A model generated the notes under the pieces. That model did no database searches and was not told the origin of the DNA. It saw nothing but the letters and a program-made list of their open reading frames with translations. A stretch of 64,000 nt of DNA. It comes from Paralysiella testudinis. Lineage in GTDB: Bacteria > Pseudomonadota > Gammaproteobacteria > Burkholderiales > Neisseriaceae. Shown piece by piece: positions 16,483 through 49,401 of this stretch; positions within the stretch are counted from its first letter, which is position 1, and each line of letters begins with the position of its first letter. The stretch covers positions 620,001 through 684,000 of the forward strand of contig NZ_CP069798.1 in the NCBI RefSeq assembly GCF_016894345.1, in the 5' to 3' direction. A program made the position numbers and the translations under genes.

Positions 16483-16609
16483 ATACCAACTCTAAAAAAT
16501 AAACCATTTTAAAATTCATCCATATCAATTGATGCATAGGATGCGCCAAGGCGCATCCTATGCCGTATTTTGCGTATTTTAATTTAAGGTTATTTTTTAG
16601 AATTGGTAT
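16483..16609. repeat. 127-bp MITE-like element, Correia-like ends but a different core
   Basis: The outer 20-bp inverted repeats (16483-16502 and 16590-16609; ATACCAACTC... and its complement) differ at one position. The same ends bound the 105-bp and 103-bp elements at 25918 and 46990. The core differs: a perfect 14-bp palindrome, 16534-16547 with 16550-16563 (GCATAGGATGCGCC and its complement). It is probably a mobile element nested in, or sharing ends with, the Correia-like family. Confidence 0.7.
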
Positions 16610-16619
16610 CAATAGTCCT

Positions 16620-16692
16620 ACAGCGTTGGCTTACCTTGCTTTGCCGTAGTACTTGTACTGCCTGCGGCTCGCCGCCTTGTATGATTTATTTT
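16620..16692 (+). repeat. Correia-like element core, ends lost
   Basis: This stretch reads CAGCGTTGGCTTACCTTGC, then GTAGTACTTGTACTG and GCGGCTCGCCGCCTTGTATG. It matches the core of the elements at 25918 and 46990 and, from memory, the right half of the meningococcal Correia element (GTACTATTTGTACTGTCTGC...). Terminal repeats are missing on both sides. Confidence 0.65.
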
Positions 16693-25492: not shown

Positions 25493-25848
25493 TTTTCTTT
25501 CCTTTGTTTAAATCCGCAACGGGAATATGCCTGTCCAATTGGCAGGCTGAGGTGGCGGGCGATTCTAACTCGTTGAATCGCCCGGATATTGGCTTGTTCA
25601 CTAAAATATCGTTGCGCCAACACGGGCTGCCTGAAACACAAAAAAGCCCACATTAGTGCAATAGCGTCATAAAAGCGTCATGCTGGTGACTCTAGCGCTA
25701 TCTTTGAAAAATTTGAACATAATGTCAAGGGAATTTGCACAAGCATTTGTTGTGCAATGCAGCATGGTTGGCTGTTGCCACGGTACCGAAACAGTACTTT
25801 CGGGTGGTGGAAATTTTACGTTCAGGCAGCCTTGGGCCATCAAATTGA

Positions 25849-25878
25849 TTGCAAAAGCCAATGGCGGCGTTTTATAAT
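25849..25878 (+). promoter_or_regulatory. Sigma-70 promoter of the riboswitch leader
   Basis: TTGCAA (25849-25854), an 18-bp spacer and a perfect TATAAT (25873-25878). Transcription should begin near 25885, just before the first riboswitch helix at 25888. Confidence 0.7.
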
Positions 25879-25884
25879 CGCCAC

Positions 25885-26181
25885 CGCTCTTAAGGGAGTA
25901 GTTGTTGAGGCTGCTTCATACCAAGCCTAAAAAATAAGCTAACTGCGTTGGCTCGTCTTGTCGTACTACTTGTACTGTCTTCGGCTTCCCGTCTTGTTAT
26001 CTTAATTTTTTAGATTTGGTATCCGCCAGCCTTAAGCGGTAATCAACATCTTTGCACATTGCTGCATGGTTGCCGTGTCTGAGCCTAGGCGCAGATTAAC
26101 GAGACTTAAGACACCGCAAACCCCACAGGCGGGCGTTTGCCGGTGTCTTTTGTTTTCTGCCCGCCTGCGGTGTCTTTGCAT
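25885..26181 (+). promoter_or_regulatory. yybP-ykoY (manganese) riboswitch with a mobile element in its P2 loop
   Basis: P1 is TCTTAA (25888-25893) with TTAAGA (26106-26111). Loop L1 is GGGAGTAG (25894-25901), and loop L3 ends CGAGAC just before the P1 3' strand; both match the Mn2+-binding loops of yybP-ykoY riboswitches as I remember them. P2 is TGTTGA (25903-25908) with TCAACA (26043-26048), continued by GGCTG (25909-25913) with CAGCC (26027-26031). Expression platform: AAGACACCG (26108-26116) pairs with CGGTGTCTT (26141-26149), giving a terminator with TTTTGTTTT at 26148-26156. Its left arm overlaps P1, so aptamer and terminator exclude each other. This predicts gene ON with Mn2+. The gene behind it (UPF0016) is a usual target of this class. 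Confidence 0.75.
25918..26022. mobile_element. Correia-like element, 105 bp, inside the riboswitch
   Basis: Inverted ends of about 20 bp (ATACCAAGCCTAAAAAATAA on the left; the complement, with differences, ends at 26022). The core has AACTGCGTTGGCTCGTCTTG, then GTACTACTTGTACTGTC. The same arrangement is seen at 46990-47092. The core matches, from memory, the meningococcal Correia element, but the terminal repeats are different and the length is shorter. Confidence 0.8.
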
Positions 26182-26745
26182 ATGGATGCGTTTCTCTCTT
26201 CTACTTTGGCCGTGGCACTGGCCGAAATCGGTGACAAAACCCAACTTTTAGCCTTATTTTTGGCTGCCCGCTTTGCGCAAAAATACGCCATTGTGGCCGG
26301 TATTTTGGTGGCCACGCTGCTCAATCATGCCGTGTCGGCATGGTTGGGCGTGTGGTTGTCGCAATGGCTATCGCCGATATTGATGGGCTGGCTGGTGGGT
26401 TTGAGTTTTGTGGCGGTGGGGCTATGGCTGCTCAAGCCGGATAAAGACGACGATGTCGATGGCCGCTATCTGCGCTATGGTGCGTTTGCCGCCAGCACGG
26501 TGCTGTTTTTCCTGGCCGAAATCGGCGACAAAACCCAAATTGCCACCGTGTTGTTGGCGGCCAAATACCATGATGTGGTGGCGGTGGTGGGCGGCAGTAC
26601 CTTAGGCATGTTGCTGGCCAATGTGCCGGTGGTGTTTGCCGGTGCTTGGCTGATGGGCAAGCTGCCGTTTAAGGCGGTACGCATCGGCGCCTGTGTGTTA
26701 TTCTGTGCTTTGGGTGTGTTTACCTTGGTGCGTTTATATGTCTGA
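26182..26745 (+). CDS. GDT1/TMEM165 (UPF0016) family manganese exporter
   Basis: 187 residues from ATG 26182 (MDAFLSSTLAVALAEIG); longer in-frame starts would run into the leader. Six membrane helices in two homologous halves, each with the family signature: AEIGDKTQLLAL near residue 14 and AEIGDKTQIATV near residue 112. The acidic residues of these motifs are the proposed cation-binding sites. Bacterial relatives such as MneA of Vibrio export Mn2+; eukaryotic members move Mn2+/Ca2+. The riboswitch-like leader supports manganese as the ligand and substrate. Overlaps the next gene by eight bases. Confidence 0.9.
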   Translation: MDAFLSSTLAVALAEIGDKTQLLALFLAARFAQKYAIVAGILVATLLNHAVSAWLGVWLSQWLSPILMGWLVGLSFVAVGLWLLKPDKDDDVDGRYLRYGAFAASTVLFFLAEIGDKTQIATVLLAAKYHDVVAVVGGSTLGMLLANVPVVFAGAWLMGKLPFKAVRIGACVLFCALGVFTLVRLYV

Positions 26746-28001: not shown

Positions 28002-28873
28002 AGGGTATGTTCACAATTACTTGTCATAAAGGTAACCACATCACAATGCACCCCAATAAAACCGTACTGTGGAAGTTGCGTTTCAGCTTATCGTAACGGC
28101 TGGCAATCGCTCGGAAATGTTTCAAACGGCAAAAGGCATTCTCTACCAAATGCCTGATTTTATATAAATACCAGTCCATGTCTTTATTTTTCTCTTCCCT
28201 ATTTCTTTTATAGGGAATATTGGCTTTCGCACCGCTTTGCTCTATTTGCTCCCTGAGCCGGTCTGAATCGTAACCTTTGTCCGCATTAACCAACTCAGTT
28301 TCGGCAAGGTTGATGTTGTCAAGCAGCTCCGGTGCAACGGTGACATCATGGATATTGCCCGCAGTAACGATAACCTCAACCGGATTGCCTGCAGCATCTA
28401 CAGCCAGATGAATCTTGCTGGTTCTGCCGCCTCGGCTCATACCGATTGCGTGATCCTCTTGCGCACTGAGCGCTGAGGCGCAGTGTTGGTGGGCACGGAT
28501 ATAACTGCCGTCTATGGCTACCCACTCCAAGTCACTCTCTTGGCTGAGCTGTTTCAAGATTGCAGTAAAAATGCCTTTTTCTGACCAACGGTTATAAGCG
28601 GTATAAACAGTATGATACTTGCCGAAATACTCGGGCAAATCCCGCCACGGTATGCCGGTTCTTATTCTGTAAAGTATGCCTTCAAGAATTCTGCGCAAAT
28701 TGGGTTTGCTATAAATACCCAAATCACGCAGAATAGGTAACAGCTTCGTCCAATGTTCATCTTCGAGTAGTGTACGGGGCATCGCAGGTGTATTGGGGGG
28801 GTGTGAGAACTTCCTTTTATGCCTGCGTTTCTTTTTTATTCAAGGGCATGACAAGTAATTGTGAACAGACCCT
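28002..28873. mobile_element. Complete IS5-family insertion sequence
   Basis: Terminal inverted repeats of 25 bp (28002-28026 and 28849-28873; AGGGTATGTTCACAATTACT and complement) have one mismatch. TA occurs at both borders (28001-28002 and 28873-28874), fitting the two-base target duplication of IS427-like members, which would make the element 28003-28872 (870 bp). It carries one intact transposase gene on the minus strand and has inserted between the secreted-protein gene and the oxyR terminator. Confidence 0.92.
28024..28782 (-). CDS. IS5-family DDE transposase, intact
   Basis: 252 residues in one frame. An N-terminal helix-turn-helix-like region (RRILEGILYRIRTGIPWRDLP, the DUF4096-type domain) precedes the catalytic domain: Asp91 in VAIDGSY, Asp168 in VNADKGYDSD and Glu214 in RHLVENAFCRLKHF with the YREK-like spacing (R, K) typical of IS5. 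Many IS427 relatives need a frameshift to make the full protein; here no frameshift is needed. All catalytic residues are present, so it is probably active. Its stop codon lies within the left terminal repeat. Confidence 0.93.
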   Translation of the reverse strand: MPRTLLEDEHWTKLLPILRDLGIYSKPNLRRILEGILYRIRTGIPWRDLPEYFGKYHTVYTAYNRWSEKGIFTAILKQLSQESDLEWVAIDGSYIRAHQHCASALSAQEDHAIGMSRGGRTSKIHLAVDAAGNPVEVIVTAGNIHDVTVAPELLDNINLAETELVNADKGYDSDRLREQIEQSGAKANIPYKRNREEKNKDMDWYLYKIRHLVENAFCRLKHFRAIASRYDKLKRNFHSTVLLGCIVMWLPL

Positions 28874-46990: not shown

Positions 46991-47092
46991 TACCAATTCG
47001 AAAAAATAACCTAACTGCGTTGGCTCGCCTTGCCGTACTAGGTGTACTGTCTGCGACTCGCCGCCTTGTTATCTTATTTTTCGAATTAGTAT
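46990..47092. mobile_element. Correia-like element, 103 bp
   Basis: Ends ATACCAATTCGAAAAAATAA and, inverted, TTATTTTTCGAATTAGTAT (two or three differences). The core CTAACTGCGTTGGCTCGCCT, then TGTACTGTCTGCGACTCGCC, matches the element at 25918-26022. It begins at the last base of the upstream stop codon and fills most of the gap to the M50 protease gene. Confidence 0.82.
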
Positions 47093-49197: not shown

Positions 49198-49230
49198 ATA
49201 CAAGGCGAGCCAACGCCGTAGCACTTTTTT
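49198..49230 (-). repeat. Correia-like fragment, reverse orientation
   Basis: ATACAAGGCGAGCCAACGCC followed by GTAGCAC is the complement of the GCGTTGGCTCGCCTTG core seen at 46990. Ends are lost. Confidence 0.55.
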
Positions 49231-49235
49231 TATGA

Positions 49236-49275
49236 TTTCAGGCAGCATTGGCCAATAAGTGCCTAACTTCAATTG
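49236..49275. repeat. 40-bp dispersed repeat, copy 2
   Basis: Near-identical to 45945-45984 (TTTCAGGCAGCATTGGCCAA and following). Both copies run into different sequence at the right edge. Confidence 0.7.
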
Positions 49276-49278
49276 AGA

Positions 49279-49318
49279 ATACCCATTCTACAAAATAACC
49301 TAACTGCGTTAGCTGGCC
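49279..49318 (+). repeat. Correia-like element, left end only
   Basis: ATACCCATTCTACAAAATAA then CCTAACTGCGTTAGCTGGCC. It matches the left 40 bases of the elements at 25918 and 46990, then stops. Confidence 0.65.
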
Positions 49319-49401
49319 TACGTGCCAATTAAACCCAGTAACTGTTGAAAACAAACCCCGGTGCACAGCGGCGCACCGGGGTTTGTTATGGTGTGGCGGT
49401 G

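Follow-up and report, generated by a model that had tools for sequence, protein, structure and literature searches.

In the 64,000-nucleotide stretch of Paralysiella testudinis DNA analyzed here (the window), the leader of a GDT1/UPF0016 gene is, as judged by comparison with related leaders, a yybP-ykoY Mn2+ riboswitch interrupted by a Correia-core MITE. We give a probability of about three in four to the reading that the riboswitch controls the exporter gene by antitermination, and that the MITE in the P2 loop leaves the four-way junction able to form. The anatomy of the leader and the insertion itself were established by comparison with the sequences of relatives, and there is good support for regarding the leader as an unusual form of a riboswitch class that is already known.

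As long as the element was present, the Rfam model RF00080 did not match the leader, not even with the threshold relaxed to E ≤ 10, and it was likewise silent at this locus when the organism's own genome was searched. An aptamer with over 100 bases inserted into it would be expected to behave in this way, but the silence is no evidence for a split aptamer; Rfam is blind to the leader because of the mobile element in P2. Directly upstream of the orthologous gene in relatives from the same family RF00080 was found to match with E-values from 6.5e-11 to 2.8e-4. The scores of these element-free leaders, 22.8-44.7 bits, fall under the cut-off of 45 bits. Membership of the yybP-ykoY class is accordingly a matter of homology to the leaders of relatives, without a direct Rfam match.

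The closest relative by gene that also has the leader is Snodgrassella sp. CFCC 13594, and its element-free leader aligned with that of the window nearly column for column. For the comparisons we used a rejoined leader, in which the element had been removed from the window leader along with one of the two target-duplication triplets. The rejoined leader kept all 25 columns that are invariant in 17 relatives and formed 34 of the 35 consensus pairs, the remaining one being a gap (34/34 scorable). Chance is excluded, since 20,000 shuffles of the rejoined leader gave a mean of 13.5 consensus pairs and a maximum of 25. A sequence profile built from 16 relatives, with the window leader left out, found the rejoined leader as a single match (70.2 bits, E 5.3e-19) and the interrupted leader as two pieces, with 49.7 bits for one and 14.5 bits for the other. 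Two ordered pieces were also found in the interrupted leader with a covariance model from the relatives (48.7 bits, E 2.5e-13, and 11.1 bits, E 0.008); the same model gave 47.8-93.8 bits or more for leaders outside its training set. Double changes were present at 27 of the 35 aptamer pairs, a number reached in none of 500 shuffles, and slid versions collapsed. The first-pass annotation had proposed that a yybP-ykoY aptamer appears once the element is taken for an insertion into the P2 tip, with every ligand-binding part intact, and these results bear this out.

The pairs, their covariation and the predicted fold all support the four-way junction of P1.1-L1-P1.2, P2, P3, and P4 that is typical of yybP-ykoY (Table 1). 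The conserved L1 (GGGAGUA/GAGA) and P3/L3 (UCAACAU...UGG) elements are present, and the leader precedes a gene of Mn2+ homeostasis and carries an expression platform, with the terminator overlapping P1.1. The L1 motif GGGAGTAG is located at 25894-25901, and GGGAGTA was invariant in 18 of 18 aligned leaders. In the relatives the aptamer was found at the same locus with L1 conserved, as was the TCAACAT...TGG motif of the P3/L3 arm, and double changes occurred at every consensus P2 pair. Some assignments made earlier had to be altered. CGAGAC had been taken for L3; it belongs to the 3′ strand of L1, as the 3′ side of L1 and of P1.1 consists of GAGACCAGGGAU (PMC6754395). Helices had been drawn as P1 (25888-25893/26106-26111) and P2 (25903-25913/26027-26048), and both exist within the limits given in Table 1 for P1.1 and P2; position 26048 runs into P3.

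Table 1. Features of the interrupted leader and the gene downstream of it (positions are those of the window).
Feature	Position	Strand	Remarks
Sigma-70-like promoter TTGCAA-18-TATAAT	25849-25878	+	10/12 matches
P1.1 switch helix, 5′ strand UCUUAAG	25888-25894	+	Partner 26105-26111, mean pair probability 0.95; covaries in relatives
L1 5′ strand GGAGUA, metal-site loop	25895-25900	+	Faces GAGA 26101-26104
P1.2 5′ strand	25901-25904	+	Partner 26097-26100; predicted fold, covariation
P2 5′ strand UUGAGGCUG	25905-25913	+	Partner 26027-26035, 9 bp
Target duplication TCA, left copy, P2 loop	25916-25918	+	TNA duplications at other copies
Correia-core MITE, 103 bp	25919-26021	+	In apical loop of P2
Target duplication TCC, right copy	26022-26024	+	One change from TCA
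P2 3′ strand CAGCCUUAA	26027-26035	+	Predicted fold, covariation
P3 arm	26036-26076	+	Outer helix 26036-26045/26067-26076, inner helix 26053-26056/26063-26066; covaries
L3 5′ strand ACAUCUU	26046-26052 (approx.)	+	Within P3 arm
P4 hairpin	26077-26096	+	Pairs 26077-26081/26092-26096 and 26083-26084/26089-26090; fold, covariation
L1 3′ strand GAGA	26101-26104	+	AGAC invariant in all aligned leaders
P1.1 3′ strand CUUAAGA	26105-26111	+	Its AAGA doubles as terminator start
Intrinsic terminator	26108-26149	+	Stem 26108-26124/26131-26149, then U-rich tract (TTTTGTTTT)
GDT1/UPF0016 divalent-cation exporter gene (MneA-type Mn exporter)	26182-26745	+	Pfam PF01169, E 3.2e-41, two stretches

The leader from Snodgrassella sp. 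CFCC 13594 also represents the nearest empty site and has TCA at the breakpoint. Its P2 loop, GGCTTTTTCAGGGAGCC, and the rejoined loop of the window, GGCTGCTTCAGCCAGCC, are of equal length and both contain TTCA, which places the insertion point at a TCA within the P2 apical loop. The inserted element had been given as 105 bp (25918-26022); the element is there, with a length of 103 bp (25919-26021) between the triplets TCA and TCC. A single genome represents the genus in this comparison. The distance from L1 to CAACA, which contains P2, ranged from 12 to 72 nt among 73 leaders, so P2 is the length-variable arm. In the window this distance is 36 nt without the element and 142 nt with it, i.e., twice that of the longest of the 73 leaders and far outside the range. 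The longest P2 arms measured, of approximately 72 nt, were those of two Methylophaga leaders, which may reflect either natural lengthening of the arm or an insertion that took place long ago. No second, independent insertion into the aptamer was found in the family: 50 other genomes had a full-length match to the model, and no element-interrupted aptamer was seen in the examined leaders of genomes with the gene and without a model match. Several family members retain the GDT1 gene with no recognizable riboswitch upstream.

The element is a genuine repeat, as follows from its genomic copies, its core matches and its target duplications. Near-full-length matches were found at 39 other places in the genome of P. 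testudinis with 86-91% identity, and the core had 129 matches compared to none for a reversed-pattern control. The copies end in the terminal repeat TACCAATTCTAMAAAATAA, and matching TNA triplet duplications flanked 26 of 27 other copies checked. In other Neisseriaceae genomes the core (query positions 25-80) matched many copies, while the ends were unmatched. The Correia core has the consensus GTACTAYTTGTACTGTCTKCGGCT, and classical Correia elements duplicate a TA target. The window element contains a core that resembles this consensus and, with the TNA duplication added to its 103 bp, belongs to the 104-108-bp size class; its duplication, TCA/TCC, is of 3 bp and differs from TA. The ends differ too, as the element has TACCAATTCTAMAAAATAA... 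in place of the 26-bp repeat ends (AACAAAAA / AAATTTAAA variants) described together with the Correia length classes (PMC2649163). In length class, core, inverted ends and a genomic core copy number above 100 it is like the ~105-bp Correia elements (CREE/NEMIS) of pathogenic Neisseria. Because of the differing ends and duplication, Correia-core MITE is the accurate name, and the earlier term Correia-like holds for the core but not for the terminal repeats and the duplication. No Rfam families were found near 20 other copies of the element. Elsewhere in the window, another near-full-length copy and related fragments were located at 46991-47091, 16587-16680, and 49200-49319. The window also carries an IS5-like insertion sequence (approximately 28003-28872) with a DDE transposase at 28024-28782 and the inverted ends GGGTATGTTCACAATTACTTGTCAT. 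As a mobilizer of the MITE it was rejected, since these ends are unlike those of the element.

The first-pass annotation had placed a promoter directly before the aptamer and an Mn-exporter-type gene after it, and both were confirmed. The promoter was the sole sigma-70-like match in 25700-26250, where 0.6 are expected by chance. It predicts a transcript start ~7-10 nt further on (25885-25888), at the foot of P1.1, and a similar -10 sequence was seen at the equivalent position upstream of the leaders of relatives. TCTTAAGGGAGTAG follows within 10 bases 3′ of the promoter, with ACGAGACTTAAGACACCG and a strong terminator about 200 bases later. Terminator hairpins were predicted at the equivalent position in several relatives. 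The GDT1 protein contains both EIGDKTQ motifs and is 75% identical to the homologue from Snodgrassella sp. CFCC 13594. The terminator region was in addition found to pair with the sequence just 5′ of the start codon in a long-range helix, CAGGCGGGC/GCCCGCCTG (26126-26134 with 26159-26167). Such a helix of at least 7 bp was present in 76% of 74 leaders compared to 7.5% of shuffles, and it covaries among leaders (GGTGGGC/GCCCACC, GGTGGGA/TCCCACC). It may add to the Mn switch a second layer of control that acts on translation.

The predicted P1.1, P1.2, P2, P3, and P4 were identical with and without the element, and the mean pair probability of P2 was 0.83 with it and 0.72 without. The RNA of the element is predicted to form a hairpin of ~38 imperfect pairs, set off from P2 by a 4 × 4 internal loop and stacked on it; the hairpin thus extends P2 as had been suggested, although not by some 50 bp. 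AAGA belongs both to the 3′ strand of P1.1 and to the terminator's 5′ arm, AAGACACCG, and the two structures are therefore mutually exclusive. When folding was carried through the end of the terminator, the terminator was favored with or without the element. In studied members of the class the Mn2+-dependent docking of L1 and L3 stabilizes P1.1 and blocks the terminator (PMC6754395; PMC11087558). The crystallized Xanthomonas oryzae RNA had its variable terminal loops swapped for tetraloops, and the smFRET construct, a yybP-ykoY aptamer put together from two oligonucleotides, docked with Mn2+ all the same (PMC6754395). Neither loop identity nor one-piece continuity is thus essential.

From this we propose that a Correia-core MITE transposed into the TCA triplet of the P2 apical loop and that its transcript would fold as a hairpin of its own, prolonging P2 in the outward direction, away from the metal site of L1 and L3. 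Both aptamer halves would be brought together and the four-way junction would still form. With Mn2+ bound, L1 and L3 would dock, P1.1 would be closed, the terminator arm would be withheld and the exporter gene would be read, and the terminator would form without Mn2+. Mn2+ binding and the direction of switching are here inferred, the latter from the studied family members. The 103 extra nucleotides delay completion of the aptamer during transcription, and this counts against the proposed antitermination switch, as do the L1-to-CAACA distance of 142 nt and the possible cleavage of the element's stem.

The long double strand of the element could be cut by RNase III. In that case the riboswitch would consist of two pieces, with the mature leader being two RNAs held together by P2, P1.2, and P1.1; antitermination would be decided before the cut, which would then alter the stability of the mRNA. 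We regard this as possible, at rather less than even odds. RNase III binds transcribed Correia elements and often cuts those with symmetrical ends, among them the one in the N. meningitidis mtrCDE leader (PMC2649163; PMC10969869). The length of the predicted stem and the Mn2+-dependent docking of the two-oligonucleotide aptamer (PMC6754395) fit such an arrangement. The stem of the window copy is, however, weaker than that of four other copies (-27.0 compared to -33.9 to -40.3 kcal/mol) and is interrupted close to the base by mismatches and a bulge, and Correia elements with asymmetric ends are bound yet protected from RNase III. The mismatches, the bulge and the weaker stem leave cleavage possible but uncertain. 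That the annealed fragments of an RNase III-split aptamer would stay Mn2+-responsive, with the cut setting the lifetime of the exporter mRNA, is improbable by our estimate, although not negligibly so.

The insertion might instead have inactivated the riboswitch, with the leader now decaying and the gene either locked off by the terminator or constitutively leaky. The failure of Rfam to recognize the leader, the doubling of the largest P2-arm spacing seen, and the complete loss of the riboswitch in some relatives would all agree with this. We nevertheless consider it unlikely, since promoter, terminator and both transporter motifs are intact, the predicted fold is unaltered by the element, and the conserved bases and pairs are undamaged despite the divergence of the element. 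The window copy was found to be the most diverged of 35 full-length copies, with 12 changes from the consensus compared to 0-9 in the others; this ranking holds within a set of copies chosen by similarity to the window copy or by an intact core. Six of the 12 changes were private among 28 aligned copies. In the aptamer no pair was broken and no invariant base changed. For an unconstrained aptamer the probability of such a state would be ~0.015 at six and 0.002 at nine changes per 103 nt; the argument assumes that the private changes arose after the insertion, and if only four did, the probability is 0.07. A diverged element next to an undamaged aptamer favors continued selection after insertion, and the sequence data thus suggest that the aptamer remained under selection. 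It is likely that the switch still works with the long extra hairpin and that Mn2+ control has continued.

The exporter gene could have escaped the switch through a new promoter brought in by the element, given that Correia elements sometimes contain a promoter or supply the missing part of one (PMC2649163; PMC10969869), but this is very improbable, as a simple scan of both strands gave no sigma-70-like match in the element, and transcripts started there would contain neither the 5′ strand of P1.1 nor that of L1 and would presumably meet a terminator with no antiterminator to oppose it.

The antitermination switch resembles the yybP-ykoY riboswitches (RF00080) of the antitermination type in Lactococcus lactis and X. 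oryzae with respect to the L1 sequences GGGAGUA/GAGA, UCAACAU of the P3/L3 arm, the four-way junction, the competition between P1.1 and the terminator, and the Mn-exporter gene downstream. It differs from known members in that the tip of P2 bears a 103-bp mobile element. In agreement with the first-pass annotation, which knew of no described riboswitch split by a Correia-type MITE, no aptamer split by a Correia element, another MITE, a transposable element or an insertion sequence was found in the open-access literature (weak evidence, with most subscription papers outside the scope). Closest to it comes the pneumococcal trp leader, an apparently functional riboswitch leader that contains a MITE-type repeat, the BOX element; that BOX lies between two complete T boxes, whereas the window element splits a single aptamer within a helix (PMC3049150). 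In N. meningitidis, the Correia element of the mtrCDE leader is likewise situated between promoter and gene and is a transcribed RNase III substrate, with no riboswitch or aptamer there (PMC2649163).

Altogether, with this leader nature has carried out an insertion experiment on a structured RNA, in which an element entered the one helix tip whose length varies among relatives while the rest of the aptamer apparently remained under selection. From the leader it can be seen how long extensions may be gained by helices at the periphery of a riboswitch, and why covariance-model searches miss interrupted members of a riboswitch class. The leader also lends itself to testing whether a riboswitch can incorporate the RNase III processing of a mobile element; if the RNase III-processed reading is true, it would be a natural split aptamer made by transposition.
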